NCBI GenBank assembly: GCA_028289375.1
Contig: JANQQK010000013.1
Span: 1-64,000, forward strand
DNA length: 64,000 nucleotides
Reading direction: 5' to 3'
Origin: Phycisphaerae bacterium
GTDB taxonomy: Bacteria; Planctomycetota; Phycisphaerae; UBA1845
This document shows, in pieces, positions 4,393-49,590 of the stretch (position 1 is the first letter of the stretch; every line of letters begins with the position of its first letter). The notes below the pieces were generated by a model that was not told the origin of the DNA, did not search any database, and saw only the letters and a list, made by a program, of their open reading frames with translations. The translations under genes and the position numbers were made by a program.

Positions 4393-4421
4393 TTGACGGT
4401 ATTTGGAGCTCTCTCTAAACT
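4393..4421 (+). promoter_or_regulatory. Sigma-70-type promoter upstream of membrane protein gene
   Basis: TTGACG at 4393-4398 (5/6 to the -35 consensus), a 17-bp spacer and TAAACT at 4416-4421 (4/6 to -10). The predicted start is near 4428, at the edge of the palindrome at 4430-4450. The same -35 hexamer, spacer length and distance to the operator recur at 9654-9708, which strengthens the call. Confidence 0.7.
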
Positions 4422-4429
4422 CCCCGGGC

Positions 4430-4450
4430 ACTTGAGAATGATTCTCAAGT
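4430..4450. promoter_or_regulatory. Fur-type iron box (perfect 10-1-10 palindrome)
   Basis: A perfect inverted repeat of 10 bp arms around one central G. Its 15-bp core, TGAGAATGATTCTCA (4433-4447), is the 7-1-7 form of a Fur operator. It sits at the predicted transcription start, where a repressor would block RNA polymerase. Known family behaviour: Fur bound to Fe2+ represses such promoters. Binding by another Fur-family regulator (Zur, PerR) cannot be excluded. Confidence 0.75.
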
Positions 4451-4517
4451 ACGGTTCTGCGGATCTGTGTCGGTTGTCACGCACATGCCTCGGAATCTTA
4501 GCTCTGCCAAGGACGCA

Positions 4518-5054
4518 ATGCCTGCAGTAACAACGACATCCTGGCTACCGCGACTTCGCAAGGGCGTTCGAAGCCTGAATGTGCTCTGGCTTCTCGCTCG
4601 AGTGGCGTGGTTGATTGCGCTCGCAAGCCACAGCGTGTGGTTCGTGAAGGGCATCGTGAGCGGCGGCGGCATTTCGCTTCCACTTGGGCTTTCACTCTGC
4701 TTCTTTGCCCTCAAGGTGTGGGATGTTCCCTTCCTGCGGGTCACATGGTCGCGACGATCCGTGATCGCTGCCATCGTCGTGGTCCTGTTCCTGCACGCGA
4801 ACGTGATCACGGATGCTGCGGCTGACGCGGACTGGACATTCCTCTGGTCATCTTTTGAGCTTCCGTTTGGCCTTACGCTGAAGTTCGTCCTAGTGGCGGT
4901 TGTTGCTGCTGCCGGATTCGTCTCCCTTGGCCGACTCGGTCGCTTTGCCAAGATACGCGGTCCTGACCCGTCGGTTGCGTTGACACAACTCACGCATCCA
5001 ATGCTGCAGGTCGCGCTCGTTCGCAACAGTCCGTTGCGTGCCCCCCCTGTCTAA
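4518..5054 (+). CDS. Fur-box-controlled integral membrane protein, unknown function
   Basis: A 178-residue protein read from ATG 4518, chosen because AAGGA lies 6 nt upstream; in-frame GTG 4467 and ATG 4485 lack a ribosome site. Four hydrophobic helices are visible at about 22-43, 50-69, 82-98 and 118-138. The N-terminus is basic, and a hydrophilic C-tail of about 35 residues follows. There is no signal-peptide cleavage site and no family I recognise. It lies directly behind a Fur-type operator, so an iron-limitation role (metal transport partner or membrane redox protein) is inferred from regulation only. A run of seven C near the 3' end could make the last codons prone to sequencing error or slippage. 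Confidence 0.72.
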   Translation: MPAVTTTSWLPRLRKGVRSLNVLWLLARVAWLIALASHSVWFVKGIVSGGGISLPLGLSLCFFALKVWDVPFLRVTWSRRSVIAAIVVVLFLHANVITDAAADADWTFLWSSFELPFGLTLKFVLVAVVAAAGFVSLGRLGRFAKIRGPDPSVALTQLTHPMLQVALVRNSPLRAPPV

Positions 5055-5398
5055 CCCATTCCCCGCTGCCTGCGGACTCGTTCCTGACGGTGTGCCGTCA
5101 CGTCCGCGGATCAACTGAAGTTTTCAAAACAACCAGCGTCTGTCACGCGTCGCGCCCTGACATAAACAGGAGTCGCATTCGATGGACAGGTCCATGATCA
5201 ATCAGCGAATGTCGCGGTCCCCCTTGTGGACGCGTGACGTTCCCTTGCAGCACGAGGTCACGTTGGCCACGCTGCGAGAAGCCAACGCATTCGAGCGAGA
5301 TGGCTGGCGCCGCGAATTCGCGTCGCGTGCACGGAGCGTTTCATGGCCGGAAAGACAATTGTCCACAGAGTCGCTCATCTATTGGAGGAAGGAAAAAG
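5055..5398. other. Intergenic region with weak hairpin and doubtful small ORF
   Basis: 344 bp without a confident gene. It holds the composite hairpin at 5072-5107 and an ORF at 5182-5409 (75 codons) with AGGAG 9 nt before its ATG. That ORF has no recognisable sequence, no signal peptide and overlaps the strong ribosome site and start of the next gene. I do not call it, but a leader peptide is possible. Confidence 0.5.
5072..5107 (+). terminator. Composite stem-loop after membrane protein gene
   Basis: Inner stem TGACGG (5085-5090) and CCGTCA (5095-5100) with a 4-nt loop, enclosed by GCGGAC (5072-5077) and GTCCGC (5102-5107). There is no T tract directly after it, so termination is uncertain; it could instead be a 3' stabilising structure. 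Confidence 0.35.
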
Positions 5399-6241
5399 AT
5401 GTTTCATAAGGCATCCGCAACTCTTGCGGTTTTGATGGTCGCATGCGTTGCGTCGGCAACCACAGTCCCCTTCGTTGAGGACTTTGACGCAGACGCGTCC
5501 AACTGGTTCGACGGAGGCGGCGCTGCCGTGGTCGACTGGTCGGCGTCTGGCGGTCCCGACGGAGGCGCGCACGTGTTCACGACACTGAGTCTCGCCACAG
5601 CCATGACCGACGACACGCCGACGCTGTTTCGTGCACAGGATCGCTTCGGATCGAGTGGTGGAGCGTTCGAGGGCAATTGGATCGCCGACGGGGTACTGCA
5701 GTTCAGTGTCTTCGTTCGCCACGATGCGCCGTTTCCGCTGACGTTCTTCACGCGTTACTCGGGTCCGGGAAATTTCCCCGGGGCGATCGCGGTCAACTTT
5801 GTGCCCGTCTTCCCGAACACATGGACGGAAATCGCCTTTGCCATCGATGCGTCGAGTCCGCAATTCATCAGCTTCGAGGGCACGAGTTTCCCGGCGGTGT
5901 TCAACAATGTCGGCCACGTTCAGGTCGGTGTATCGGTGGGTGCTGGCCAGGGTGGATTCCCGTTCCCGATCAATGTCGATCTCGACAAGGCCGCGATCAC
6001 GAACTGCATTCCGGACTGTGCTGGACTTGAGTGCGGCGATGATGGTTGCGGCGGCTCCTGTGGCGTCTGTGTCTCGGGGGAGCAGTGCAACGCGAGTGGG
6101 ATTTGTGAGGAGATCGATCTGCCTGAACCGGAAGCCGTGCCGGCGATGAGCGAGGGTGGAATGACGGCGTTGATGGCCTTGTTGGCGATCGCGCTGATGT
6201 ACAGATTCAAAACAAGGTGGGCTGAGGCGTCCAAACTTTAG
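5399..6241 (+). CDS. Secreted protein with Cys-rich module and CTERM-like tail
   Basis: 280 residues from ATG 5399, preceded by a very strong ribosome site (GGAGGAAGG). A signal peptide (MFHKASATLAVLMVACVASA) leads into a beta-rich body of about 180 residues (FVEDFDADASNWFDGG and following), reminiscent of jelly-roll surface modules but not assigned. A Cys-rich module follows (CAGLECGDDGCGGSCGVC), a pattern recurring in planctomycete and myxobacterial secreted proteins. The C-terminus is VPAMSEGGMTALMALLAI with a basic end (RFKTRW), which looks like an IPTL/PEP-CTERM-type sorting signal: motif, hydrophobic helix, positive tail. It is therefore predicted to be exported, processed and retained at the outer surface. 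The tail resembles those at 9487 and 58264. Confidence 0.85.
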   Translation: MFHKASATLAVLMVACVASATTVPFVEDFDADASNWFDGGGAAVVDWSASGGPDGGAHVFTTLSLATAMTDDTPTLFRAQDRFGSSGGAFEGNWIADGVLQFSVFVRHDAPFPLTFFTRYSGPGNFPGAIAVNFVPVFPNTWTEIAFAIDASSPQFISFEGTSFPAVFNNVGHVQVGVSVGAGQGGFPFPINVDLDKAAITNCIPDCAGLECGDDGCGGSCGVCVSGEQCNASGICEEIDLPEPEAVPAMSEGGMTALMALLAIALMYRFKTRWAEASKL

Positions 6242-6335
6242 GCGCTTCAAGGCTGCGACCGGGCGGAGACGGGTACGAAACGGACTACTCACCCGATCCG
6301 TGTGCATTGAAGGCCCCATTTGGGAGGAAGAACCC

Positions 6336-7463
6336 ATGGCGTTCCGATCAGCCGGCATTCTCGCCGTTCTGATTTCAATGACCTGCTCAGTGGTTGCGGG
6401 CGCGGCGGACACCGCGTTCGTGTTTGACACTCCGAGCGACGATCGCTGGCACTATCCGTTTAACTTTACGCCGGGATTCAGACCAGTAGCGTCGGCGTTC
6501 GGTGCGGCTGACATACCGGGTTTCAATGACCGAGATGGCACGATCCTGATCGCATGGGACACTTCTGAAGATATTGAACCCGGCTTGGGTGCCGAAGCGT
6601 ACGAGATTCAATCCATCAGAATCACGATGACGAACCAGGTGAACGAATTCGTCAGCCCGCAGTGGCCAATTGACTTGACCGTCGATGAGTGGTTCACCTT
6701 CGTCGAAGGCGGTGTCGATGACGATCCCGGTCGGCCGATCGAGTTGTTCGGCGTGGCATTCGGCCCGGCCACCAGCGAAGCACTTTGGAATGAAACGACG
6801 TTCTACAACGGTTCGTCGTCCACAGCCGATCTGCCGCGTGATCCGTTTCCATTTGTGTACCAGGAAGAGACCTTTGAAGCGTTGCACGTGGAGGACTGCG
6901 TAAAGGGCCTGCACAACGAAGGACTTTCCACACCGCTTTGCGACGATCCCGACGGGATCTGCCCGTTTACGCCGACCCCATGGGCCATCGGCGTACCAAC
7001 TGGCTACACACCCGGATCACAGGTCGCGCCCTTTGATGTCACGTTTGACATCAATCTTGAGCTCTCCGACGGGCATGTGAAACAGTACTTCCAGGAGCAG
7101 CTGAACAACGGCCGCATCCTCGTGTTTGTCACGTCGCTGCGTGAGACGGCGGTTCAGGGACCTGCGTCAGGGTTTCCCAGTTTTTACATGAAGGAAGGCG
7201 TTCCGCTGGACCCGAATGCACGGGCAGGCCGCCTTGAGCTTGTGCTGGGCAACGCCGTGACCGGCGATTTGAATTCTGATGAAGCCGTTGATCTCACCGA
7301 CTGGTCAGGATTTGCGGACTGCCTTAGCGGGGAGGGAGTTGCTCCGTTTCCGGTCGAACCGCTGACGGTGGAGCAGTGTTTGTGCACGTACGACTTCGAT
7401 CGTGATGGAGATGTGGACCTGCTGGACGCGGGAGACTTCGCGATTGCGTTCTCCGGGCCGTAG
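6336..7463 (+). CDS. Secreted protein with dockerin-like C-terminus (paralogue of 8444)
   Basis: 375 residues from ATG 6336, preceded by GGGAGGAAG. A signal peptide ends near VVAGAADT. The mature body (FDTPSDDRWHYPFNFTPGF, then DPGRPIELFGVAFGP and FQEQLNNGRILVFVTSLRET) aligns along its length with the product of 8444-9487. Unlike that paralogue it ends in two EF-hand-like loops (DLNSDEAVDLTDW and DFDRDGDVDLLDAGDF), i.e. a dockerin-type calcium module. The function of the shared body is unknown; it looks like a planctomycete exported all-beta domain. An upstream start at 6300 is less likely because it lacks a ribosome site. Confidence 0.87.
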   Translation: MAFRSAGILAVLISMTCSVVAGAADTAFVFDTPSDDRWHYPFNFTPGFRPVASAFGAADIPGFNDRDGTILIAWDTSEDIEPGLGAEAYEIQSIRITMTNQVNEFVSPQWPIDLTVDEWFTFVEGGVDDDPGRPIELFGVAFGPATSEALWNETTFYNGSSSTADLPRDPFPFVYQEETFEALHVEDCVKGLHNEGLSTPLCDDPDGICPFTPTPWAIGVPTGYTPGSQVAPFDVTFDINLELSDGHVKQYFQEQLNNGRILVFVTSLRETAVQGPASGFPSFYMKEGVPLDPNARAGRLELVLGNAVTGDLNSDEAVDLTDWSGFADCLSGEGVAPFPVEPLTVEQCLCTYDFDRDGDVDLLDAGDFAIAFSGP

Positions 7464-7521
7464 GGATCGGACTGGAAAGATCACGCTGCGATCGCCCCAC
7501 TTCGGATAGGAGAGTTCGACG

Positions 7522-8340
7522 ATGAGAGTCGCCAGACAGTTCATTCAACGCAAGGGATTCACGCTGATTGAACTACTCGTTGTTGTTTCGATCATCGCGC
7601 TGTTGATCAGCATTTTGCTTCCGTCGCTGAAGAGCGCGCGAGAGTCATCCAAGGTGGTGGTCTGTCGCAACAACCTGCGCAGCATCTGGACCGGGATCAT
7701 CCAATACTCGTTCGTGAACATGGACAATGTCCCGTTCATGGAGGACATCAATCAGACGGATCCCAACGCCGACCCGTTTGATCAGGATCCGGCCCACAAT
7801 TCGACCGTTGGCCGGGTTCTTCAGAAATACGTCAACGAGAAAAGCTGGATATGCCCGAGTGCGATTCGTGGTTACCCGGCGAACGCCCCACGGGGCCAGT
7901 GGAAGATGACCTACTGGTTCCGCACGGCTGGTGCGATTGGGGAGGGTACTCCGTATTCACCATCGAACGCGACAGAGGGCGCGTTGGGACCGCTGGTCAG
8001 CAACTACGTCAGTTTTGACGGTCGGCCCTTGCGGGTGCTAAGCGGTCGTCGCCATACGCCGAGTAATCCACTGGCTCCGAATCGCGATCACATTGGCCCG
8101 TGGACATTTTCGTTTCCCTTGATCGCCGACCTGATCAATGGGGACGAGTCTGCTGGACGACCCGTATATCCGCACAGTGGCGTTGTTGAGCAACGTCTCG
8201 ATCTGCAGAACGCCCGCGGGTTGTTCGAGCGGAACACGGGCAAGGGTCGCAAGAAAGCCCGAATGGAATTGCATACGGAAGGAGACAAGGTGCGTATCAT
8301 GCTGACGCGCGTGCCCTTCCCGCATCAGCCTGGGTTCTGA
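7522..8340 (+). CDS. Type II secretion/pilin-like protein with prepilin N-terminus
   Basis: 272 residues. After a short basic leader comes the prepilin motif KGFTLIELLVVVSIIALLIS, with cleavage expected between G and F and Glu at mature position 5, then a long hydrophobic helix (LLISILLPSLKSARE). This matches the pseudopilin-like proteins that are strongly expanded in planctomycetes. Processing would need a PilD-type peptidase, which is not in the window. The body contains one early Cys (VVVCRNNLR), typical of this group, but no clear H-X9-DG motif at the end. It lies between two paralogous secreted proteins in the same orientation and may form a surface assembly with them. That link is inference. 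Confidence 0.88.
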   Translation: MRVARQFIQRKGFTLIELLVVVSIIALLISILLPSLKSARESSKVVVCRNNLRSIWTGIIQYSFVNMDNVPFMEDINQTDPNADPFDQDPAHNSTVGRVLQKYVNEKSWICPSAIRGYPANAPRGQWKMTYWFRTAGAIGEGTPYSPSNATEGALGPLVSNYVSFDGRPLRVLSGRRHTPSNPLAPNRDHIGPWTFSFPLIADLINGDESAGRPVYPHSGVVEQRLDLQNARGLFERNTGKGRKKARMELHTEGDKVRIMLTRVPFPHQPGF

Positions 8341-8443
8341 ATCCGGCTGTCGATTTGGCGTGAAAGGACAATGCGCGTTGATCTGCGAATCGAACACATC
8401 GTGAAACAGAATTGAGCGCAACACAAGTGGAGGTATAGAAGCG

Positions 8444-9487
8444 ATGAAGAAGATGGCCTGTTGCATGGCTGCTGTATTGACCATGGTGACTGCAGCGCCC
8501 GCTGCTGATTTTACATTTGACACGCCCAGTGACGATCGCTGGCACTACCCGTTCAATTTCAGTCCCGGATTTCGGACGACAGCCTCGTGCTTCGGGACGG
8601 TTGGCACGCCGGGATTCAACAACCGCGATGCCATGATCTACGTGGCGTGGGACACGAGCGAACTGATCGCACCGGGGAAGGGAGCGGGTGCTTACGACAT
8701 TCAGTCCATTACCGTCACCCTGACCAATCAAGCCAATGCGTTCATCAATCCAGATTGGCCGATCGATACAACCGCTGACGAGTGGTTCACGTACGACCTC
8801 AATGCCGACGGCATGAACAACGCCGACGGCATCCCACGTGGGGAAGCCGGCGATACCGACGGGGAAAGCGACGACATCGATCCGGGCCGACCACTGGAGT
8901 TGTTCGGGCTGGTGTTTGGACCGACCACCAGCGAATCCACTTGGGGTGAGTTCACGCCGTTCATCGGCGGTGACAGCATGACCGTTGTCGAGCGCGATCC
9001 GTTTCCCTTTGTCTTTCAGGATGGTACCAACGCACCTCTGCACGTTGAGGACAACGTCTCAGGCCTGTTCAATGACGGTCTCGGCGTGTTTCAATTCACG
9101 CCGACTCCTTGGGCAACCGGCTCACCGATCGGCTACACGCCCGGCGCGCAGAGCGTACCGTTCGATGTCCAGTTCGACATCGATCTGACGCTCGCCGACG
9201 GCGAAGTGAAGGCCTATTTCCAGGAGCAGCTCAACAATGGCCGCATCATCGTGGCCGTCACCTCGCTTCGTGAGACGGTCATGATGGGATCGTCTTCAGG
9301 TGTCCCCAGCTTCTACATGAAAGAAGGGGTCAGCCTCGACCCTGGAGCGAAGGCGGCAAGCCTCCGCGTCACCATTGCCGAGCCGGACGTACCAGCAATT
9401 TCCGGCATGAGCATGGCGGCGATGGCCAGCATTTTCGTGGGTGTGGGCGCGCTCGTATCGCGTCGGCAACGCCTGCTGGCAGCCTGA
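8444..9487 (+). CDS. Secreted protein with CTERM-like tail (paralogue of 6336)
   Basis: 347 residues from ATG 8444 with GGAGG upstream. A signal peptide (MKKMACCMAAVLTMVTAAPA) precedes the same body seen at 6336-7463: DTPSDDRWHYPFNF, then DPGRPLELFGLVFGP and FQEQLNNGRIIVAVTSLRET. Instead of dockerin loops it ends VPAISGMSMAAMASIFVGVG followed by SRRQR, a CTERM-type anchor. One duplicate thus carries a calcium/dockerin tail and the other a membrane sorting tail. An insertion rich in Asp/Gly (DLNADGMNNADG) is present in this copy only. Function unknown. Confidence 0.87.
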   Translation: MKKMACCMAAVLTMVTAAPAADFTFDTPSDDRWHYPFNFSPGFRTTASCFGTVGTPGFNNRDAMIYVAWDTSELIAPGKGAGAYDIQSITVTLTNQANAFINPDWPIDTTADEWFTYDLNADGMNNADGIPRGEAGDTDGESDDIDPGRPLELFGLVFGPTTSESTWGEFTPFIGGDSMTVVERDPFPFVFQDGTNAPLHVEDNVSGLFNDGLGVFQFTPTPWATGSPIGYTPGAQSVPFDVQFDIDLTLADGEVKAYFQEQLNNGRIIVAVTSLRETVMMGSSSGVPSFYMKEGVSLDPGAKAASLRVTIAEPDVPAISGMSMAAMASIFVGVGALVSRRQRLLAA

Positions 9488-9653
9488 TCAGTTTTTTGAC
9501 CTCGCCCTACATCCGGGTGAGCAGGCTGTTTCAGTTCTGAACTTGGAGCGGCCCGTTCACCCCTTTTTGTCACCCCTTCTCCCTAATTTGAACAAGCTGT
9601 CACACTGTTCCTCAATGGACGCGGATTTCTCGCGCGTTGTCACGCGTGGCCAT

Positions 9654-9682
9654 TTGACGGACTCGACCGCTGCTCCTACCAT
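9654..9682 (+). promoter_or_regulatory. Sigma-70-type promoter upstream of DUF4198-Kelch gene
   Basis: TTGACG at 9654-9659, a 17-bp spacer and TACCAT at 9677-9682. The geometry is the same as at 4393-4421: identical -35 hexamer, equal spacer, and operator core starting 12 bp after the -10 box. Predicted start near 9689. Confidence 0.68.
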
Positions 9683-9693
9683 ACGCCGCCTAT

Positions 9694-9708
9694 TGAGACT
9701 GAGTCTCA
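9694..9708. promoter_or_regulatory. Second Fur-type palindrome (7-1-7)
   Basis: TGAGACTGAGTCTCA is a perfect 7-1-7 inverted repeat. It differs from the core at 4433-4447 only by one symmetric base change in each arm plus the base pair next to the centre. Its position relative to the -10 box is the same to the base. It probably binds the same regulator. Confidence 0.7.
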
Positions 9709-9798
9709 TCTAGCTGCCTCTGCGGTGGGTGATTTCGGGCTTCACCTATCCATGACCGCTTGATTTCGAATTGAAGATCAACACTCGCGAGGAGTCCC

Positions 9799-12027
9799 AT
9801 GCGATCAACTTCATACGCTGCTCTTTCTTTGCTCTTTTCGCTTCTGTTCGGGAACGTGGCGCACGCCCACTTCTCGTTCATCGTGCCTTCCGACGATGGA
9901 CAATCGGCTCGGATCATCATGGCGGAAACCCTTGATGAATCAGAGGCAATCAGCGTTCAGTTTCTGGGCAACATGACCCTGTTCGCGAGGAACGGAACAG
10001 ATGAACCGCGGGCGTTGACAACCACGGCAATCGACAAGCGTGCTCTGCGGATCGAGACGCGCGGGTCCGGCACACGGGTGATTTACGGACGAGCCGACCT
10101 GGGCGTCATGGGACATGGGTCCGCACCGCACCACCTGATTTACCACCCCAAGACCATCGTCGGCAATCCGTATGACCACGCCACTCACCTGGGGAAGGCT
10201 GTTCCGCTCGAGTTGATTCCGGTGCGTTCATCCGATGCTGATCAGTTTCGAGTTCAACTGGTCGCCAACGGCCAAGCCCTGACTGAATCCGAAGTCACGC
10301 TCATTCTGCCAGACGGAAACACGGAAGTGATGGTCACGGATGACGCGGGGATGACGCGGGCCTTTGACGCCGTGGGACGGTATGCGGCATGGGCGCGGCA
10401 TTGGCATGACACGCCGGGAGAGCTGGACGGCAAGGCGTTTGAGCAGGTGCGCCATTACGCAACCCTCGTCTTCGACGCTGACGGTGATCGGTCTGTTCAT
10501 GCCGATTCCGCGACTGCGGCGATGGAGACACGCGTCGAAAAGTGGATCGATCTGCCAATTGCGACAGCCAGCTTCGGCGCTGTGGCGTCGCGGGGATGGC
10601 TGTATCTGTATGGCGGGCACACGGCTGTCCCTCACGAATACCACACGAGTTCGTCGTCCGGAGGGTTCTGGCGATTGGATCTGACGGCGCCTTCAGAATG
10701 GCAACAGCTTCCGGGCGATGTCGCACTTCAGGGAATGAATCTTGCGGCAATCGACGGGTTGATCTACCGGGCAGGCGGCATGCGGTCGCTAAACGCGGAA
10801 GGCGAGCCGGCGGACAATCGTTCCAGTTCCGACGTCGCCGTCTTTGATCCCGCGTCGATGTCGTGGCAGGCGCTGCCCCCCCTGCCCGTTCCGCGTTCGT
10901 CACACGACGTGGTGGCTGTTGGCCGGACGCTGTATGTATTGGGCGGCTGGGAGATGCGTCACAGCGCGCCATCGCAGTGGGCCAGCATGATGCTCGCACT
11001 GAACATGAACGAGAAGAATCCCGAGTGGCAACAGGTGCCGCAGCCATTTCATCGGCGGGCGCTGATCGCTGCGGCCTTTGGTGAACGCATTTACGTGATG
11101 GGTGGGTTCAACGAATCGAACAAGCCGAGTCGTCGCGTCGAGGTCTACAACACCGTCACGCGGAAGTGGTCGGAAGGTCCCGACTTGCCAGGCCGATCGA
11201 TGAACGGGTTCGCACCGGCAGCATGCGTGCATGACGGACGGCTGCTGGTCAGCGTTGGCGACGGCACGATGTATGGCTTGACCGACAACCGCAATGCGTG
11301 GGAGCCGGTCGCAGAGACAACGCCCCGAATTGTGCATCGCATGGCGCCGGCAGGTTCGCGCGTGCTGGTCATCGGCGGAGCGGCTGAGGGTGACGTCGTC
11401 GATCTGCTCGAAGCGGTCCGCGTGTCTCAACCGCCCACGACTGTCAGCGAGAACAATTCCCATATGGTGTCGAGCGATAACAAGAACGAACTCGGCACGC
11501 GCGATGATGTCGTGGCCACTGCCGTCGATTCAAAGAAGGCCGACAAAGAGCCGACGACACAATCCACGCCGACCGTTCAGGATGAAGTTGCGTCAGGCGG
11601 TACGGCATCGAAAAGCCCGATCGCGATGGGCCAGTCCGTCTGCCCGATCATGACGTCGAAACCCATCGATGGTGACAGCCCGGTGGCCATGTATCGGGGA
11701 CGTCCCGTGGCGGTATGCTGCGAAACGTGCCTGACGAAGTGGGATCGCAATGCGGATGGTTACGCAGCGGTTGCGGCGTTGCCACAACTGGATGGCCTGA
11801 AGATTCCACAGCGCAAGATCGAGCAGGTGTTCTGTCCCGTGTACAGAACGCGCGTCGTCACATCAGCTGATCCAACGGTCGAATACGAAGGCCAGACGAT
11901 ATACCTGTTCAATCGCTCCGCAGTCCGCCGGTGGAATGAAAACCCGCAAAAGTACGCAGACGTCGCATTGCTGCCGCAGTTGCGGCAAAATTCGCAAGAG
12001 AAAACGGTCGCAAGGTCTGACGACTGA
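9799..12027 (+). CDS. Periplasmic DUF4198 - six-blade Kelch propeller - double YHS-like metal-binding fusion
   Basis: 742 residues. A signal peptide ends AHA/HFSFIVP, so the mature N-terminus is His, as in DUF4198 (NikK-like) metal proteins. DUF4198-like domain to about 235, with His-rich spots (HGSAPHHLIYHP, WARHWHD). Six Kelch-type blades follow to about 550 (LYLYGGH, LIYRAGGM, LYVLGGW, IYVMGGF, LLVSVGDG, VLVIGGA). After a polar linker come two YHS-like modules: SVCPIM with VCCETCLTKW, and VFCPVYRTRV, where the second Cys pair is lost (LFNRSAVRRW). The Fur-type operator upstream suggests induction under iron limitation. Inferred role: extracytoplasmic metal capture or handover. The fusion order is unusual. 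Confidence 0.82.
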   Translation: MRSTSYAALSLLFSLLFGNVAHAHFSFIVPSDDGQSARIIMAETLDESEAISVQFLGNMTLFARNGTDEPRALTTTAIDKRALRIETRGSGTRVIYGRADLGVMGHGSAPHHLIYHPKTIVGNPYDHATHLGKAVPLELIPVRSSDADQFRVQLVANGQALTESEVTLILPDGNTEVMVTDDAGMTRAFDAVGRYAAWARHWHDTPGELDGKAFEQVRHYATLVFDADGDRSVHADSATAAMETRVEKWIDLPIATASFGAVASRGWLYLYGGHTAVPHEYHTSSSSGGFWRLDLTAPSEWQQLPGDVALQGMNLAAIDGLIYRAGGMRSLNAEGEPADNRSSSDVAVFDPASMSWQALPPLPVPRSSHDVVAVGRTLYVLGGWEMRHSAPSQWASMMLALNMNEKNPEWQQVPQPFHRRALIAAAFGERIYVMGGFNESNKPSRRVEVYNTVTRKWSEGPDLPGRSMNGFAPAACVHDGRLLVSVGDGTMYGLTDNRNAWEPVAETTPRIVHRMAPAGSRVLVIGGAAEGDVVDLLEAVRVSQPPTTVSENNSHMVSSDNKNELGTRDDVVATAVDSKKADKEPTTQSTPTVQDEVASGGTASKSPIAMGQSVCPIMTSKPIDGDSPVAMYRGRPVAVCCETCLTKWDRNADGYAAVAALPQLDGLKIPQRKIEQVFCPVYRTRVVTSADPTVEYEGQTIYLFNRSAVRRWNENPQKYADVALLPQLRQNSQEKTVARSDD

Positions 12028-14849: not shown

Positions 14850-17324
14850 ATGGCCGCCATGCTCACCCAAAGCACGCTCCTTGACGCACTGCCAATGCAC
14901 CTTGCTGAACGAGTGCGGACGTTGAATGATGCCCGCCTCAGCGAGACCGGCGAATTCGTGCTCTATTGGGCTCACCATGCTGTGCGAACAGATGAAAATC
15001 CGGCCTTGGATGCTGCGATTGCCGCAGGCCTCCAGCTCAAACGCCCCATCTTGGTGTATCAGGGGCTTGGCGGTCGTCATCGGTTCAACTCGGACCGGCA
15101 CCATGCGTTCATCCTTGAGGGTGCGCGTGATTTTTCCGCGTCATTGGCAGACAGGGATATACGGTTCGCCTTTCACTTGCCACGCTCCGCCGATGGTCCA
15201 TCGCCATTGCCGGATCTGATGATGCGTGCCGCATTGGTCATCACCGAGGACTTTCCCGCACCACCCTTCCCGCTCTGGTGTGAGTCGTTGGCGATGCGGT
15301 CGCCCGCTCCGTTCTGGACGGTCGACACTGCCTGCATCGTGCCGATGCAATCCGTCGGGCGATCATTCGAGCGGGCGTTTCAGTTCCGCAAGAAGACGTG
15401 GGATGAGTTCGAGAAGCGCGTGGTGATGCCGTGGCCAACCCCTGGTGTCGAAGCGTCGCCTTTCGTGGGTGACGTGGGGTTTGAACCTGTCGATTTGGCA
15501 ACAGCATCGATTTCAGATCTCTGTGCGTCCTGCGACATTGATCACACGATCGGTCCGGTGTCGCACACGCGAGGCGGAAGCGTGGCCGGCGACGCGCGCT
15601 GGGAACAATTCAAACGTGACGGGCTATCTTCGTACGCGCGCCTTCGCAACGATGCCACGATAGAGCCGCCGCGCGGGGTCAGCCGATTGTCGCCCTACCT
15701 GCACCACGGACACGTTTCTCCGTTTCGCGTCGCACGCGAGGCGGCCACCAATGGTGGTGCCGGCGCTGAAAAGTTCCTGGACGAGTTGTTTGTCTGGCGG
15801 GAACTGGCGCATAACTTCTGCTATCACCATCGACACGTCGAACGGCTCGAAGCACTCCCTGGCTGGGCTTGCGATACGCTCGAAGAACACGCGTCAGATG
15901 TGAGACCGGCTATCTATTCATGGGAGCAGTTGGCGCGTGCCCAGACCGATGACGAGCTTTGGAACGCGGCGCAGCGGTCGCTGATCCGGCATGGCGAGCT
16001 GCACAACAATCTGCGCATGACCTGGGGCAAGGCCATTCTGCAATGGACGCATTCGCCATCCGACGCCTTGCGCATCATGATCGATCTGAATCATCGTTTC
16101 GCGCTCGATGGGAGTGACCCGAATTCCTACGGAGGGCTGCTCTGGTGCCTGGGTCTCTTCGATCGACCCTTCACACCACCCAAGCCGATCATCGGCACGA
16201 CGCGTCCAAGACCCGCGGCCACGCATGCATCGCGCATGGATCTCGACCGTTACACAGGGCGCATCGATCAGCCTTCTGGCAGTTCACCCCTCAGTGTTGC
16301 GGTAATCGGTGCGGGTATCGCGGGACTGACGGCTGCGAGGACGATGCAGGATCATGGTCACACTGTGACGGTGTTTGAGAAATCGCGGGGCGTCGGCGGG
16401 CGAACAGCCGTTCGAACCGTACCACCATTTTCGTTTGATCGCGGTGCACAATACTTCACGGTGCGAGACGAACGGTTCGGGCGGTTCGTCGCGTCGTGGA
16501 TGGAGATGGGCATCGTCGCGGACTGGGACGTGCGCGTTGTGTCGATTGGCACCGGCGATGCGCTCGATTCTGTGGAGAAACGTCGATACGTGGGTGTTCC
16601 AGGCATGACTGCCATCGCCAAGCATCTCGCGGTTGATCTTGACGTCCGTTTTGAAACGCGCGTTGCCAAGCTCAAACGACATGGGCAACGATGGCAGCTT
16701 GCGGACGCGACTGGGAATGACCTCGGGGGTTATGACGCGATCATTCTCGCAATTCCACACATCCAAACGGTTGAACTGCTGGGAACCGCTGGCGTGACGA
16801 TCCCTGTATCGAACCACGTCCGGCTGGCTCCATGCTGGTCGGTTCATCTGGGTTTGGACCGAAGGCTTGACGTGCCGTTTGACGGAGCGTCGATCGAAGG
16901 TTCGGCGTTGTCATGGATCGCGCGCAACAACAGCAAACCGGGGCGCGAAGCGGGTGAAAGCTGGGTCCTCCACGCTTCTGCCGACTGGTCGACCGAGAAC
17001 ATCGAAGCCGACGCCGATGACGTCATCGATCGATTGACCAACGCGTTCTTTGACGCAACCGGCGTCGTTGCTCAGAAGCCCGCCTATCGAGATGCCCATC
17101 GATGGCGTTACGCGTTGCCGACTGCCGCGATGAGTGAGGGTTGCATTTCCGATGTCGATGATCGATGGTTTGTGTGTGGTGACTGGTGTCACGGAAATCG
17201 ACTTGAGTCCGCGTTTCTTAGTGGCGCTGCGGTGGCGGGACGCGTGCTTGGCGATGCGGATCGTTTGGTGGACAACGCCCACGCACGTGAGGAGGAGATG
17301 TCGCTCCAGCCTGAAATCAAGTAG
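14850..17324 (+). CDS. Class II photolyase fused to renalase-like FAD oxidoreductase
   Basis: 824 residues. Residues about 22-455 are a photolyase of class II type: FVLYWAHHAVRTDENPAL, then WRELAHNFCYHH at 316-327, WNAAQRSLIRHGELHNNLRM from 371 and WGKAILQWT from 392, with DGSDPNSYGG at 420-429. Class II enzymes repair pyrimidine dimers using FAD and blue light. Residues 480-824 are a second flavoprotein: GAGIAG at 487-492, EKSRGVGGRTA at 510-520, RGAQYFTVRD and a C-terminal WFVCGDWCHGNRLESAFLSG, resembling renalase-type oxidoreductases. No stop or frameshift lies between them. The class II helix usually reads HGYMRMYW; here it is HNNLRMTW, a divergent lineage. An ATG at 14859 has a better ribosome site (AGGA) and may be the true start. 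Confidence 0.88.
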   Translation: MAAMLTQSTLLDALPMHLAERVRTLNDARLSETGEFVLYWAHHAVRTDENPALDAAIAAGLQLKRPILVYQGLGGRHRFNSDRHHAFILEGARDFSASLADRDIRFAFHLPRSADGPSPLPDLMMRAALVITEDFPAPPFPLWCESLAMRSPAPFWTVDTACIVPMQSVGRSFERAFQFRKKTWDEFEKRVVMPWPTPGVEASPFVGDVGFEPVDLATASISDLCASCDIDHTIGPVSHTRGGSVAGDARWEQFKRDGLSSYARLRNDATIEPPRGVSRLSPYLHHGHVSPFRVAREAATNGGAGAEKFLDELFVWRELAHNFCYHHRHVERLEALPGWACDTLEEHASDVRPAIYSWEQLARAQTDDELWNAAQRSLIRHGELHNNLRMTWGKAILQWTHSPSDALRIMIDLNHRFALDGSDPNSYGGLLWCLGLFDRPFTPPKPIIGTTRPRPAATHASRMDLDRYTGRIDQPSGSSPLSVAVIGAGIAGLTAARTMQDHGHTVTVFEKSRGVGGRTAVRTVPPFSFDRGAQYFTVRDERFGRFVASWMEMGIVADWDVRVVSIGTGDALDSVEKRRYVGVPGMTAIAKHLAVDLDVRFETRVAKLKRHGQRWQLADATGNDLGGYDAIILAIPHIQTVELLGTAGVTIPVSNHVRLAPCWSVHLGLDRRLDVPFDGASIEGSALSWIARNNSKPGREAGESWVLHASADWSTENIEADADDVIDRLTNAFFDATGVVAQKPAYRDAHRWRYALPTAAMSEGCISDVDDRWFVCGDWCHGNRLESAFLSGAAVAGRVLGDADRLVDNAHAREEEMSLQPEIK

Positions 17325-43038: not shown

Positions 43039-44085
43039 TCAGCAGATACGCGGAAGCTGCTCACCGCTCAACATGTCCACCACACGCGACGAACCGATCG
43101 ACGTCCGCATCGTCACCATCCCCCGACTCGCCTCACGCACCGCGCCGATGATCGCCGCCCCTGAACCATCATCATCGCCTCGCAGCACACTCAGCGCCTG
43201 ATCCGCCTCCCCTGCCGAAACCACCACCATGAACCGCCCCTCACACGCCACGTACAGCGGATCAAACCCGAGAAGTTCACAGCCGCTACGCACATCATTC
43301 CGTACCGGGACATCGCGTTCTTCAAGCTCGATGTGAACACCAGCCGCGTCTGCCACTTCATTCAGCGCACTGGCCAATCCCCCGCGCGTCAGATCCCGAA
43401 GGCAATGCACCGCGATCCCCGCATCAAGCAGACGCGACACCGCGTCCCACACCGGCGCCGAATCACTCTCGATCGTCGTTTCAAACGCCAGCCCCTCCCG
43501 CTTCGCCATGATCGCCATGCCATGACGACCGATGTCACCGTTCACCAACACCACATCCCCAGGCTCAACGGACTTCGCCCCGATCTTCAAGTCATGCTCA
43601 ACGAGCCCAATCCCCGCCGTGTTGATGTAAACACCGTCCCCCTTGCCCCGATCCACCACCTTCGTATCGCCGGTGACAATCTTCACCCCGACCGCTTCCG
43701 CCGCCGCCGACATCGACGCCGTCACACGCTCCAGTTCCGAAATCGCAAACCCCTCTTCCAACACGAAACCCGCACTGAGGTACAACGGCTTCGCCCCGCT
43801 CATGGCCAGATCGTTCACCGTCCCATGCACCGCCAGCGAACCGATGTCACCCCCGGGAAAGAAAATCGGTTTCACCACGAACGAATCCGTCGTAAACGCC
43901 AACCGCACGCCCGCAACATCGAGAACCGCCGAGTCATGCTGTTCCGCCCCGCCCCCCCCCAGCCGCGACAGAAACACATCCTCAATCAGGCGATGCATCA
44001 GCACGCCACCACCACCATGCGCCATCATCACCCGATCATGCGCGTTCAACGGTGTCGGACACGACATGGCGAATTCGTCGGCCAT
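43039..44085 (-). CDS. hypE: Hydrogenase maturation protein HypE
   Basis: 348 residues, usual size for the family. HypE dehydrates the thiocarbamate on its C-terminal Cys to make the cyanide ligands of the NiFe active site. Visible are AHGGGGVLMHRLIEDVFLSR (ATP-binding glycine region), DFVVKP-like core strands (FTTDSFVVKP), MVSAGEADQA-type AIRS domain and the obligatory C-terminal end PRIC. The start overlaps the hypD stop (TGATG). A run of nine G in the coding strand (plus-strand 43952-43960) encodes part of LGGGGAEQ and is a possible slippage site. Confidence 0.96.
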   Translation of the reverse strand: MADEFAMSCPTPLNAHDRVMMAHGGGGVLMHRLIEDVFLSRLGGGGAEQHDSAVLDVAGVRLAFTTDSFVVKPIFFPGGDIGSLAVHGTVNDLAMSGAKPLYLSAGFVLEEGFAISELERVTASMSAAAEAVGVKIVTGDTKVVDRGKGDGVYINTAGIGLVEHDLKIGAKSVEPGDVVLVNGDIGRHGMAIMAKREGLAFETTIESDSAPVWDAVSRLLDAGIAVHCLRDLTRGGLASALNEVADAAGVHIELEERDVPVRNDVRSGCELLGFDPLYVACEGRFMVVVSAGEADQALSVLRGDDDGSGAAIIGAVREASRGMVTMRTSIGSSRVVDMLSGEQLPRIC

Positions 44086-45206
44086 CAGGATTTGGCTCCC
44101 CCGTCACCGGATACCGCCACACCACTGCGACGATAGCGATAGTACGCCGCACACGCCCCCTCCGATGACACCATCGGCGCCCCAAGCGGCTTCTCCGGCG
44201 TACACTGGAATCCAAAGGCGGTGCACTCACAAGGCCGCTTCACCCCCTGCAGGATCAACCCACTGATGCACTCCGCCGGCTCCTCGACGTCGCCACCTTC
44301 CAACCCGAAGCGTCGCTCCGCATCGAATGTCTGATACGGCGCGCGCAAACCAAGCCCGCTCTGCGGAATCGCCCCGATCCCCCGCCACTTTCGCAGCACC
44401 ACCTCAAACACCTCTTCGATCAACGACTGCGCCGACGCATTCCCCTCCTCCGCCACCGCCCGCGAATAGGCAATCTCAACCTCCGCCCGACCCGTCTCCA
44501 ATTGCTGCACACACAGGTACACCCCCTGCAGAATGTCGACCGGCTCGAAACCCGTCACCACGATCGGAACGCCATACCGCTCCGCGATCGGTCCATATTC
44601 GCCGCACCCCATCACCGTGCACACATGCCCCGCCGCCAAGAACCCCTGCACGCGATTCTCCGATGACGACAGAATCGCCTCCATCGCCGGCGGCACCAGC
44701 ACATGCGACACCAGCATCGAAAAGTTCTCCACGCCCTTCGCATGGGCATACCGAACCGCCATCGCATTGGCCGGCGCGGTCGTCTCGAACCCCACCGCGA
44801 AAAACACAACCTGCTTGTCCGGATGCTGCTCCGCCAGTTTCACCGCATCCACCGGCGCGTAAACGATCCGAACGTCGCCCCCCTCCGACTTGACCGTCAG
44901 CAGATCCTTCTCGCTACCCGGCACACGCAACATGTCCCCGAACGAACAGAAAATGACGTCTTCCCGCGACGCCAACGCGATGGCTTTGTCGATCAATTCC
45001 AACGGCGTCACGCACACCGGACACCCAGGCCCATGAATCAGCGTGATCTCCGGCGGCAGCAGCGCATCAATCCCGTGCTTGACGATCGAATGCGTCTGCC
45101 CGCCGCAAATCTCCATCAGAACGTGCGGCTTGGTCGTGACACGACGAATCGCCGCAGCCAATCTCTGGGCAGCCTCGCCATCGCGGTACTCATCCAGATA
45201 CTTCAT
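44085..45206 (-). CDS. hypD: Hydrogenase maturation protein HypD
   Basis: 373 residues. HypD is the [4Fe-4S] scaffold on which Fe(CN)2CO is assembled together with HypC. Motifs: [45 protein letters not shown] and the C-terminal cluster-binding [19 protein letters not shown] with a later Cys ([10 protein letters not shown]). All cysteines expected for the family are visible. The ATG overlaps the hypC stop by 4 bp (ATGA). Confidence 0.97.
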
Positions 45207-45457
45207 GGCTCATCCGTTTCCAGCTCAGCCAGTTCCCCCATCTCACGAAGGTAATCAAACACCTTCTCGGCTTCCGCTTCGTCGATCACGCTCAACGCCA
45301 TCCCCACATGCACGAGAACATAATGACCAATCGCTGCCTCCGGTACGCACATCAGCGACACATCCTTCTGCACGCCGCCGAAGTCGACCTTGCCCTGCCG
45401 CAGCAGGTCTTCACCTTCTTCGATGCTGACAATCCTGCCAGGAATCGCTAAACACAT
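45203..45457 (-). CDS. hypC: Hydrogenase maturation chaperone HypC
   Basis: 84 residues from ATG 45457; the product starts [10 protein letters not shown], with the essential Cys2 that carries iron to the large subunit. A GTG one codon earlier would bury that Cys and is rejected. It continues [20 protein letters not shown] and [20 protein letters not shown], normal for HypC/HupF. The start shares TGATG with the hypF stop. Confidence 0.97.
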
Positions 45458-47754
45458 CACGCACGCTCCTTCAGTCGCGCTCGCGCCACCACAGCCTGAC
45501 CCAACGACACACCACCATCGTTCGTCGGCACCTGTTGATGCCAGTAAGGTTCAAAACCCGCCTCCTTTAACCGATCGATGGCCGACTCCAGCAGCAGGCG
45601 GTTCTGAAAACAACCGCCCGAGAGCACGACCTTCTCCTGATTGTAACACGCCGCCACCATCAGAATCGCCTCGACAAGCGTATTGTGGAACTTTCGCGCC
45701 GTTTCTTCCACCGCCCGCCCCCGACGAACATCCGCCATGATCCCCTCAATCAACCCAGCCCAATCGATCACCGCCGGATCGCCACCTCCAGCAGACACCG
45801 GATACGCATCGTCCGTCCGCCCCCGCATCGCTGCGAACTCCAGCTCCATCGCCGCATGCCCCTCATGCGCCACCCGCTGCCGCAGCCCCACCAACGACGC
45901 CACCGCATCAAACAACCGCCCGACGCTCGACGTCACCGGACAGTTCAGCCCCCTCTCAAGCGCCTGCCGCACCACGTGCAACTCCGTTTCCGCGAACGCC
46001 TTCACCGTTGGCAGATCGTCGCAATCCCAAACCGCGTCCCCCATCAACGCGTGCAACAACCCAATCGCACTGCGTCGCGGCTCATGTGACGCCGCATCGC
46101 CGCCCGGCAACCCGAATGTCCGCCAATGCGCCACCCGCTCGAATTCCCCCCGATCGCAAAGCAGAAACTCCCCGCCCCAAACGGTCCCATCCTCGCCATA
46201 TCCCGTGCCATCCCACGACACACCCAGCACCCGACCCGTCAACCCATGCTCGCCCATGCACGATGCGACATGCGCATGATGATGCTGCACGCGAATCAAC
46301 TCCGCATCCATCGCTTCCGCTCGCCGCGTCGACAAGTAATCCGGATGCAGGTCGCACGCCACGACATCGACATCGGCGTCATACAATCGCGGCAGATCAC
46401 CCACCGACCCATCGAACGCCGCCACCGCCTGCTCCGTCACCAGATCACCAATATGCTGCCCGACAAACACCTGCCGCCCCTTCGCCAGCGCCACCGTGTT
46501 CTTCTGATGCGCCCCGACGCACAACACCGTCGCACCATCGTCCTCCAACAAGACCGGCATCGGCGCATATCCCCGCGCCCGCCGCACCACCATCTCCCGC
46601 CCACAAACAACCCGAACCACCGAATCATCCATCGCCCGCACAATCGGTCGATCGTGCACCAGAAACGCATCCGCGATTCCCCGCAACCGGGTCACCGCCT
46701 CCCGCTCGTCAACACAGATCGGCTCGTCCGACAGATTCCCACTCGTCGCCACCACCGCCCCACCCAACTCACGCATCAGCAAGTGATGCAACGGCGTATA
46801 CGGCAGCATCACACCCAGATACGGATTCCGCGGACTCACCGCATCAGCCACGTCGTGCGTCACACGGTCATGACGCTCCAGCAACACGATCGGCGACGCC
46901 GGCGACGCCAACAATGCGCGCTCAACATCCCCCACATCACACAGCCGATCCGCCGTGTCCAGCGACGCCACCATGATCGCGAAGGGCTTCTCCTCCCGGT
47001 GCTTCCGACGACGCAACTCAGCCACCGCATCCCCATTGGCCGCATCCACAAGCAACTGAAAACCACCAAGCCCCTTCAGCCCGACGATCCGCCCCGCCCG
47101 AATCGCATCCACCGCCGCCATCAGCGCATCATCCCGTTCGCACACAACCGCGCCATCCGCATCCCACAACGCCAATTGCGGTCCACACGCCGGACACGCA
47201 TTCGGCTGCGCATGAAACCGCCGATCCCCCGGATCGTCGTACTCCGCCCGACAATCCGGACACATCGCAAATTTCTTCATCGAAGTGTTCGCCCGGTCAT
47301 ACGGCAGCGACGCGATGATCGAAAACCGAGGCCCACAATGCGTGCAGTTCGTAAACGGATAGCGATACCGACGATTCGACGAATCACAAACGTCAGCCAA
47401 ACAAGCGTCACAGGTGGCCACGTCCGGCAGCACGAACGCAGCCCGCGCTCCCGACACCGAACTCGCCCGAATCTCAAACGCACTACCCCCGACCGGGTCG
47501 ATCACATCCGAGGCAACCGACAACACGCTCACCAGCGCGGGACGATCGCCGTCCAGCCTCCTCTCAAACGCTGCAAGATCACCCTCCGCCCCCTCAACCT
47601 CGATGATCACCCCAGCCGGCGTATTCTCCACAAACCCCGACAACGACATCGACGTTGCCAGCCGATAGACGAATGGCCGAAACCCGACACCCTGCACGGT
47701 ACCGCTGACATGAAAACGACGGCGCGAGATCATCACGCCGACAGTCATAACCAC
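45457..47754 (-). CDS. hypF: Carbamoyltransferase HypF
   Basis: Up to 765 residues; the exact start is uncertain (47754, 47748 or 47733; acylphosphatase homology begins right after the last). Domains: acylphosphatase (FHVSGTVQGVGFRPFVYRLA), two zinc-finger pairs (CDACLADVC with CTHC; CPDCRAEY with CPACG), YrdC-like nucleotide-binding domain (GRIVGLKGLGGFQLLVDA, RRRKHREEKPFAIM) and the Kae1-like carbamoyl domain with VQHHHAHVASCMGEHGL. HypF transfers carbamoyl from carbamoyl phosphate to the HypE Cys, the first step of cyanide-ligand synthesis. It is complete. Confidence 0.96.
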   Translation of the reverse strand: MVMTVGVMISRRRFHVSGTVQGVGFRPFVYRLATSMSLSGFVENTPAGVIIEVEGAEGDLAAFERRLDGDRPALVSVLSVASDVIDPVGGSAFEIRASSVSGARAAFVLPDVATCDACLADVCDSSNRRYRYPFTNCTHCGPRFSIIASLPYDRANTSMKKFAMCPDCRAEYDDPGDRRFHAQPNACPACGPQLALWDADGAVVCERDDALMAAVDAIRAGRIVGLKGLGGFQLLVDAANGDAVAELRRRKHREEKPFAIMVASLDTADRLCDVGDVERALLASPASPIVLLERHDRVTHDVADAVSPRNPYLGVMLPYTPLHHLLMRELGGAVVATSGNLSDEPICVDEREAVTRLRGIADAFLVHDRPIVRAMDDSVVRVVCGREMVVRRARGYAPMPVLLEDDGATVLCVGAHQKNTVALAKGRQVFVGQHIGDLVTEQAVAAFDGSVGDLPRLYDADVDVVACDLHPDYLSTRRAEAMDAELIRVQHHHAHVASCMGEHGLTGRVLGVSWDGTGYGEDGTVWGGEFLLCDRGEFERVAHWRTFGLPGGDAASHEPRRSAIGLLHALMGDAVWDCDDLPTVKAFAETELHVVRQALERGLNCPVTSSVGRLFDAVASLVGLRQRVAHEGHAAMELEFAAMRGRTDDAYPVSAGGGDPAVIDWAGLIEGIMADVRRGRAVEETARKFHNTLVEAILMVAACYNQEKVVLSGGCFQNRLLLESAIDRLKEAGFEPYWHQQVPTNDGGVSLGQAVVARARLKERA

Positions 47755-47803
47755 GACAACACCCCCAGATCAAGAGCGTCCGCAGACATGCACGAAATGA
47801 AAA

Positions 47804-48304
47804 TCAACGTTCCGACGCAGAAAACGCGAATTCACCAGCGATACGTTCCACCACATCATCCACCACGCCGGACACCGCGCTCGACATGACGTCCCCCGCC
47901 TCGAACCGCGACCCCTCGATCCCATACACAACCAGCGCGCGCGGCAGCGTCCCCAGCACCCGCGCCATCTCAATCGCCTCCGCCACGCTGAACGCATGCG
48001 TCGAATAGTTGAAAAACGCGCTCGGAATTGGCTCCACATGCGCGTCCAACCGATGCACCACCCCCGCCGACGCACCCGACCGCACCGCATCCACGATCAC
48101 CACGTCATCCTCCGCCCGCCACAACGCCATCAGCGATGCCCCCTCCCCCGACGCCTCCGCCACACAGACGCCCCGACACCGATTGCGCAATCGACGCGCC
48201 ACCACCACCCCCACGGCGTCGTCACACCGATAGACATTGCCCACCCCGATCACCAGACGTCGCCCCCCATCAACATCCGGCACGGCTTTCTCGGGCAACG
48301 TCAC
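47804..48304 (-). CDS. NiFe hydrogenase maturation endopeptidase (M52)
   Basis: 166 residues from GTG 48304, overlapping the hydA stop (GTGA). Motifs: [20 protein letters not shown] (nickel-sensing Asp in the loop), [20 protein letters not shown] and [20 protein letters not shown] with the conserved His. Family M52 enzymes remove the C-terminal tail of the large subunit after nickel insertion. Here the predicted cut is after His420 of HydA, removing FLKLEVNRS. 49 bp separate it from hypF. Confidence 0.93.
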
Positions 48305-49590
48305 GACCGATTCACCTCAAGTTTCAGAAAGTGCGCCGAGCACGAAATGCATGGGTCGTAGTTACGGATCGCCTGCTCGCACTCCCACTGCAGTTCGTCA
48401 TCAGGCCGATCGAGATTCGGCTCCACGTAATGCCACAGATCCTTCTCGATCACCTTCTGATTCACCGCCGTCGGCGAGACGATCTTCGCATCCTGAATCA
48501 ACCCCGCATCATCAATCGTGTAGCGATGATAGCAGATGCCCCGCGGCGCCTCGGTGCATCCATATCCCGTCCCCGCACGAGGCTCCATCTGCACGAACGG
48601 TCGATCCGGTTCCTCATATTCCTCGACAAGCCGAATCGCCTCTTCGCACGCGAACACCGTCTCCACACCGCGAACGATGATGCTCTGGAACGGATTGCGA
48701 CAGGTTTCACCCAACCCCGCATCCTTCGCCGCCTCCTTCGCCAGCGGCGTCAGTTGATCGTAATTGATGCTGTAGCGAGCCAGCGGGCCGACATGACACG
48801 TCCCGCCACCGTTCACGTAGGTATGCAGTGCCGTCGAGTGCGGCACGTGCTTCTCGATCAGAACCGCGTCGTACTCACTGATCGGCACGTCCATGCCATT
48901 GTTGGACACGAGTCGACCTTCATTTAGCGGATACTCGTCCGGATGCTTGAGACAGACAAACTCATAATCCTGCTCAAACTCCAGGAACGGCAGGCTCGTC
49001 ACGAACTTCACCATCTTGATCGACGCATCCAGCGCCCACTTCAGATCATCCATCATTGCGCGCATTTCCCGGCGCGTCGGCACCCGATAGAAACCGCCAA
49101 CGCGCACGTTGATCGGATGAATCTCTCGCCCGCCGAGCAACTTCATGACGTCGTTGCCGATCTTCTTCAACTTCAACGCCATCTTCACCTCATCGGGATG
49201 ATCCTGTGCCATCGCGATCGCATCCGGATACTTCAGGAAATCCGGCGCATGCAGCATCGCCATGTGCAGGATGTGGCTCTCGATCCACTCCCCGCAGTAC
49301 AAAAGCCGCCGCAGGTTGCGAATCGGCGTCGGAACCGTCACTCCGCCGATCATCTCCATTGCGTGCACCGCGCCCATCAGGTACGCCACCGGACAGATGC
49401 CGCAGATCCGCGCCGTAATGTCCGGCGCTTCGGTGTAGTTCCGCCCGCGCAGAAAGGCTTCAAAAAAACGCGGAGGTTCGAAGATGCGAAACTTCACGTC
49501 GTCAAGCCGCCCGCCCTTGATATCAATCCGCAGCGCACCCTCGCCCTCAACACGCGCCAGATAGTCGACATTGATCGTTCTAGTTCGCAT
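48301..49590 (-). CDS. hydA: Group 3b [NiFe] hydrogenase large (alpha) subunit
   Basis: 429 residues from ATG 49590, which overlaps the end of hydD by 11 bp; GGGAG lies upstream. The product starts [20 protein letters not shown]. Nickel-binding motif L1 is [16 protein letters not shown] (Cys63, Cys66, His76) and L2 is DPCISCSAH (Cys414, Cys417, His420), followed by a nine-residue tail for proteolytic removal. Size and motifs fit cytosolic group 3b bidirectional enzymes (sulfhydrogenase alpha), which exchange electrons between H2 and NADP(H). It works with the HydBGD proteins encoded just upstream. Confidence 0.95.

Follow-up and report, generated by a model that had tools for sequence, protein, structure and literature searches.

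A putatively secreted DUF4198-Kelch-YHS-like protein behind an iron-type operator in a planctomycete: a candidate for metal capture outside the cell

To our knowledge, it is an open question how scarce iron is delivered to the cell in bacteria that do not possess TonB-dependent receptors. The window analyzed here, a stretch of 64,000 nucleotides from a Phycisphaerae bacterium (assembly GCA_028289375.1, contig JANQQK010000013.1, positions 1–64,000), belongs to a genome without detectable receptors of this kind and carries a defined, duplicated, and presumably iron-controlled set of six genes around a domain with solved metal-binding relatives. The set is located on the + strand at 4467–12027, is equipped with two operators, and ends with g6, a 742-codon reading frame that is open at 9799–12027 (+) and encodes a product of 742 aa. 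An initial annotation had proposed a secreted metal handler at 9799–12027; this is a real gene, but the coordinates cover only the last of the six clustered genes.

Domain architecture and putative metal ligands of g6

In g6, a DUF4198 fold is followed by a six-bladed Kelch propeller, a predicted disordered linker, and two YHS-like modules. All three units were confident in the full-length model, with disorder between the propeller and the tail (mature residues 526–579, 11443–11604 (+), pLDDT under 50). The first 23 residues (9799–9867 (+)) were judged by eye to be a leader peptide, whose hydrophobic stretch ends with A-H-A in front of H24-F, and predicted cleavage after A23 (AHA/H) would leave a histidine as the first residue of a secreted protein, as had been suggested initially. 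A full-length paralog with 66% identity is present in the same genome (4.99 Mb, 99.27% complete), and among 150 related genomes five further ones (G004, G034, G072, G095, and G097) encode the same full-length architecture with 48–53% identity. In the alignment of these seven full-length proteins, i.e., the window protein and six homologs that were not picked on the basis of the N-terminal His, the residues His24 (the predicted mature N-terminus), His111, C615, C640, C641, C644, and C679 are invariant. A wider alignment of relatives of the Kelch protein comprised the window protein and 29 of 38 loci, leaving out L057, the frame of which is uncertain, as well as L079–L082, L084, and L086–L088 (Kelch only, cut or ambiguous starts).

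The N-terminal domain (mature residues 1–205, 9868–10482 (+)) scores weakly against the DUF4198 family profile PF10670, with 15.3 bits for the window protein compared to a Pfam cut-off of 34, and the mature domain by itself is not matched at E ≤ 1. The same profile is matched (E ≤ 1) by 20 of 26 aligned relatives' domains, with 6.7e-10 as the best value, and an hhalign profile-profile comparison with canonical DUF4198 domains from related genomes, namely the nine out of 20 loci (L114–L133) that met the script's length and motif rule, yielded 97% at an E value of 1.1e-10. Since a fold search with the full-length model was swamped by propellers and the other parts were not testable there, the N-terminal domain was folded alone (pLDDT 95.6). 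The resulting model aligned to the Ni-bound DUF4198 structure 9GCB with a Z score of 18.0 (186 aligned residues, rmsd 3.2), had its best match in Zcp (Z 18.7, with the next unrelated row at 7.0), and gave a Foldseek E value of 1.0e-09. An absence of the DUF4198 fold or of a relation to YHS was looked for, and neither was found; the initial DUF4198 assignment is thus borne out by fold, profile comparison, and relatives. A canonical single-domain DUF4198 gene (1.4e-33) is present in the same genome at G000:C18:67497-68156 and offers a natural comparison protein. When the sequence of one split DUF4198 protein was compared with the PDB, only weak and implausible matches to viral proteases were obtained, and these were discarded.

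The alignment to 9GCB pairs residues 1–205 of the model with residues 1–213 of the chain, so that the aligned span starts at residue 1, a histidine, in both. An N-terminal His is present in all 26 aligned domains, 23 of which had been chosen by a script with a motif containing that His, and in 79% of the DUF4198 family according to the accessible part of the IsDUF4198 report (PMC12537917). The same source describes Ni in IsDUF4198 (9GCB) as being coordinated by His1 and His18. IsDUF4198 (PF10670/NikK-like) thus shares with g6 the β-sandwich over mature residues 1–205 and the N-terminal His, whereas the two proteins are only 19% identical and the His18 ligand does not appear to be conserved by sequence position in g6. 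In the sequence alignment, no histidine around residue 18 is conserved among the 26 domains; a glutamate, E20, is conserved in 25 of them, close to the 9GCB His18 position by sequence. Judged from aligned positions rather than coordinates, this carboxylate may stand in place of the second His ligand. Furthermore, g6 differs from IsDUF4198 in its fused Kelch and YHS parts and in having an iron operator instead of a nickel neighborhood. Zcp (PDB 9mhi to 9mhn), for which our literature search found no publication, is the closest fold and has metal-bound structures; its solved chain comes without Kelch or YHS, and its mutant entry names H29, H31, and H142.

It might be, then, that g6 is a nickel or zinc handler, whose DUF4198 domain binds these metals as the solved relatives do and whose operator is recognized by a paralog of FUR (Nur or Zur). 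IsDUF4198 binds Ni best (Kd 18 nM), and the accessible part of its account does not name iron among the metals (PMC12537917). The Zcp structures contain Zn, Cu, and Co. The window itself also carries a [NiFe]-hydrogenase cluster, consisting of large and small subunit genes together with HypD, HypE-like, and HypF genes, at 43039–50368 (-). A FUR-family-controlled PEP-CTERM exoprotein for zinc, ZepA, is likewise known from the PVC group, as described in the accessible text of PMC10957091. ZepA resembles g6 in being a secreted metal-uptake protein with this type of signal and control; it differs from it in handling zinc under Zur and in acting as a single exoprotein, and the likeness is drawn from its published description. 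The operator sites discussed below make this reading unlikely.

The propeller (mature residues from about 223 to 522, 10534–11433 (+)) is recognized by the Kelch profile PF01344 with an E value of 3.3e-26. Its structural matches are six-bladed propellers with Z scores of 32–34, including the Kelch part of NS1-BP at 34.4, which agrees with the six blades counted in the initial annotation. An assignment as mutarotase or N-acetylneuraminate epimerase was rejected, as 27 bits compare to NCBIfam cut-offs of 243 and 416 and reflect a common propeller signal. The connection of DUF4198 to a Kelch propeller extends across Acidobacteria and Planctomycetota. In locus L077, a DUF4198 gene directly follows a Kelch gene, and in L080 a DUF4198 gene follows a Kelch match, though the Kelch frame was not called in the ORF list. 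The occurrence of both parts as separate neighbors supports the idea that they form a working pair.

The C-terminal tail scores 13.9 bits against the YHS profile, which is under the cut-off. Module 1 (11641–11793 (+)) retains the C..CC..C pattern (C615, C640, C641, C644) in all seven full-length proteins and appears in the full-length model as an EE-HH arrangement (E606–609, E612–615, H619–627, H629–633). Module 2 (11833–11982 (+)) keeps only the first cysteine, C679, and has lost CC..C in all seven; it is YHS-like by sequence and predicted elements and is not counted as a metal-binding YHS member. The putative fold of the pair is derived from sequence and the full-length model. Thus, of the three metal- or ligand-binding elements that had been proposed for this chain, two keep plausible metal ligands and the second YHS-like module does not. 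In a search of the 150 related genomes, the nearest relatives of the tail were small secreted proteins. Eleven of their loci (L041–L051) were taken from many C-terminal matches and their neighbors were named by eye, with the L046 pair alone being scanned with Pfam. Ten of them adjoin Cus-type RND-efflux-like ORFs, and the remaining one adjoins a P-type-ATPase-like ORF. The Cus-operon-associated proteins, which come from the same order, carry one to three homologous CPVM..CC..C modules each and retain CC..C in 38 of 39 modules; one homolog showed three YHS stretches at 3.7e-12, in line with the two YHS-like modules and Cys patterns that had been noted in g6. They differ from g6 in being tied to RND efflux genes, not iron, and in the CC..C that g6 module 2 is missing. 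Within these loci, the secreted proteins occur in pairs beside the Cus-type efflux genes across the order, one kind having a His-rich tail and the other a DUF2231 membrane part (checked for L046).

The location of the YHS relatives in Cu/Ag-efflux-type operons suggests copper rather than iron. Together with the four cysteines kept in module 1, it would fit a copper guard, in which the YHS pair binds Cu(I)/Ag(I) and, when iron is scarce, keeps copper away from iron uptake or from iron sites in the periplasm. However, the homologs from Acidobacteria and several of those from planctomycetes lack the pair, which is therefore not the core function, the operator is of the iron type, and no copper gene was found at the operator sites with the queries used, among which there were no copper-gene profiles. 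We thus regard a copper guard as improbable, more so than a nickel or zinc handler.

A Fur-type operator and its regulon

Both operators of the cluster are located just downstream of promoter-like sequences. The first pair, TTGACG-17-TAAACT (4393–4421 (+)), is followed by Fur-type operator 1, TTGAGAATGATTCTCAA, a perfect palindrome at 4432–4448 (+), and the second, TTGACG-17-TACCAT (9654–9682 (+)), by operator 2, TTGAGACTGAGTCTCAT, at 9693–9709 (+). The two pairs have an identical TTGACG hexamer and a 17-base spacer, and in each case the operator begins 11 bases past the end of the pair. The window contains two copies of the palindrome TTGAGANTNANTCTCAA (4432 and 9693), where 0.14 would be expected from shuffles. 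In the whole 4.99 Mb genome, there are eight places with at most one mismatch, two of them here, two at the paralog cluster, and four elsewhere. One of the latter, C17:28101, lies in the promoter of a heme oxygenase gene (PF01126, 9.2e-27). The matches at C22:82955 and C67:73016 are within unrelated ORFs and that at C15:12011 is close to an ORF end; these three were taken as chance or unexplained. The palindrome at G000:C15:12011-12027 has a counterpart at G001:C24:54298-54314, near or inside an ORF with the motif GCRDFRPQPP in two genomes of the genus, and a ferredoxin-like ORF is also close to the G000 site.

Across the order, the exact palindrome was found at 34 sites in 20 of 114 genomes. 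All 34 sites were inspected, with Pfam checks on examples; for the heme oxygenase sites L159 and L174, Pfam and a trimmed query both provided confirmation. They precede feoAB (8 sites), heme oxygenase genes (9), CbiX-like genes (4), and genes of the six-gene cluster (7, in four cases the Kelch gene); 6 are unassigned, and one of these precedes another prepilin-like gene. From the feoAB, heme oxygenase, CbiX-like, and cluster sites it follows that the operator is an iron operator, so that the Fur-type operator of the initial annotation stands. The feoAB and heme oxygenase sites are an iron Fur signature, which speaks against the nickel or zinc handler, including its Zur variant, as does the fact that no zinc or nickel transporter was recognized by eye adjoining the 34 sites. 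The genome of the window contains four FUR genes. Of seven other carriers, four (G004, G034, G072, and G069) yielded no exact operator in a search of the whole genome, and the first three of these encode the full-length protein.

The CbiX-like proteins behind the iron operator (L158:4017-4982, L166:4018-4986, L168:4013-4981, and L153:5632-6627) have lipoprotein-like or leader-like N-termini by eye and are candidates for exported chelatase-like proteins in the iron regulon. Pfam CbiX was checked for two of them, L158, which is just under the cut-off, and L153.

Gene neighborhood and TonB-dependent receptors

The first cluster gene, g1 (4467–5054 (+)), encodes a 195-aa membrane protein without a Pfam match, a distant homolog of which in another genome matches DoxX weakly and likewise carries this operator. 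It is followed by g2 (5399–6241 (+)). The secreted product of g2 has a C-terminus that weakly resembles IPTL-CTERM, and a homolog in L073 exceeds the PEP-CTERM cut-off. The products of g3 (6336–7463 (+)) and its paralog g5 (8444–9487 (+)) are secreted proteins of the HYPFNF kind, with a weak dockerin-like end in g3, and g4 (7522–8340 (+)) encodes a prepilin-like protein (N_methyl, 1.8e-07).

The company that DUF4198 proteins keep elsewhere would also allow a role as periplasmic redox or assembly partner, which aids ferric reduction or matures secreted partners, as DUF4198 does in PepSY/ApbE clusters. PepSY-like flavinylation clusters frequently include DUF4198 according to the accessible text of PMC8238504, and a thioredoxin-like ORF is located nearby in G034. 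However, no Pfam match to PepSY, ApbE, or DUF2271 was obtained for the products of g1–g5, and we consider such a role very unlikely, slightly more so than the copper guard.

All six genes are present a second time in the genome at G000:C3:29172-37014 (L032:3173-11018), in the same order, with both operators, and with 63–85% identity (tblastn). G099 has a Kelch-only form and, after it, homologs of the other cluster genes behind one operator, and in G097 the cluster halves are unlinked, with an operator at each. Genes of these kinds also precede the Kelch gene in more distant Planctomycetota and Verrucomicrobiota, as supported by BLAST matches among them. Of 33 sources examined, 23 were non-acidobacterial, and 11 of these have a prepilin motif no more than 2.5 kb away from the Kelch gene, compared to none of the 10 acidobacterial ones. 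Prepilin-like genes are common in planctomycetes, and this proximity is therefore weak by itself.

In the 99.27% complete genome of the window, no match to the TonB-dependent receptor barrel (PF00593) or plug (PF07715) was found, while the controls E. coli, Caulobacter, and Bacteroides gave matches; a FecCD permease and FeoB are present. The barrel is also absent from 9 of 23 other carriers tested, including five of eight genomes from the same order or class. TonB-dependent receptors are encoded in G034, G072, G133, and others. The absence of a receptor among carriers is thus common, not universal.

In Acidobacteria, the protein stops after the propeller (DUF4198-Kelch without YHS), and in 13 of 16 loci its gene is adjoined by a TonB-dependent receptor of one family, which by reading is located upstream on the same strand in 11 loci and divergently in two. 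Of the other three, L071 and L072 are without a clear receptor, and the start of L060 coincides with the edge of its contig. A FUR gene lies nearby in L058.

Proposed role of g6 and comparison with known systems

Overall, we lean toward g6 being an exported metal-capture protein that is induced by iron starvation. Under iron shortage, a Fur-family repressor would leave the operators that lie just past both promoters of the cluster, allowing the six genes to be expressed. In the mature protein, the N-terminal His in the DUF4198 cleft would bind a divalent metal. Going by the regulon only, in which feoAB and heme oxygenase genes share this operator, the cargo would most likely be iron, in a fold family that can prefer nickel or zinc. 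The Kelch propeller would be the docking part. In Acidobacteria it may sit on the neighboring TonB-dependent receptor, and in the receptor-free planctomycete its partners may be the secreted and prepilin-like surface proteins encoded in the cluster. On its disordered tether, the tandem YHS pair could receive metal from the other end of the protein, whereby module 1 with its four cysteines would take up or buffer the metal and module 2, being without CC..C, would be structural. The more far-reaching idea that Planctomycetota use the cluster to scavenge iron independently of TonB receptors, with prepilin-like and sorting-signal surface proteins replacing the receptor of Acidobacteria, is put forward only tentatively and seems doubtful to us, although a little less so than a nickel or zinc cargo.

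Fur-controlled DUF4198 proteins are known from other bacteria. In Caulobacter, DUF4198 genes rank among those with the strongest response to iron and Fur, and CC2193 and CC3061 are Fur/iron-controlled DUF4198 proteins like g6, one of which adjoins a TonB-dependent receptor (PMC3751524). They differ from g6 in the presence of the receptor and in their proteobacterial origin, and the accessible part of that report mentions neither Kelch nor YHS. Alteromonas DUF4198 genes likewise adjoin iron-responsive receptors, according to the accessible text of PMC7190382. The proposal of a metal handler under Fur control, which is well supported by the regulon and the neighborhood and presumes that the protein binds metal, was therefore not entirely new: as far as the accessible texts go, Fur-regulated and metal-binding exported DUF4198 proteins were already in print (PMC3751524, PMC12537917), and what is new is the fusion, the propeller, and a cluster without a TonB receptor. 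Our literature searches yielded no report of DUF4198 fused to a Kelch propeller and a YHS pair, nor of an iron regulon in which the partners of such a protein are prepilin-like and sorting-signal proteins rather than a receptor. The cluster thus suggests an as yet undescribed route by which metal, probably iron, is collected outside the cell, and the named genes, operators, and residues (His1, E20, and the module 1 cysteines) are now available for testing.

Downstream of g6, the window furthermore contains an 824-aa ORF (14850–17324), which by eye consists of a photolyase/cryptochrome-like half and a FAD-dependent oxidoreductase-like half.
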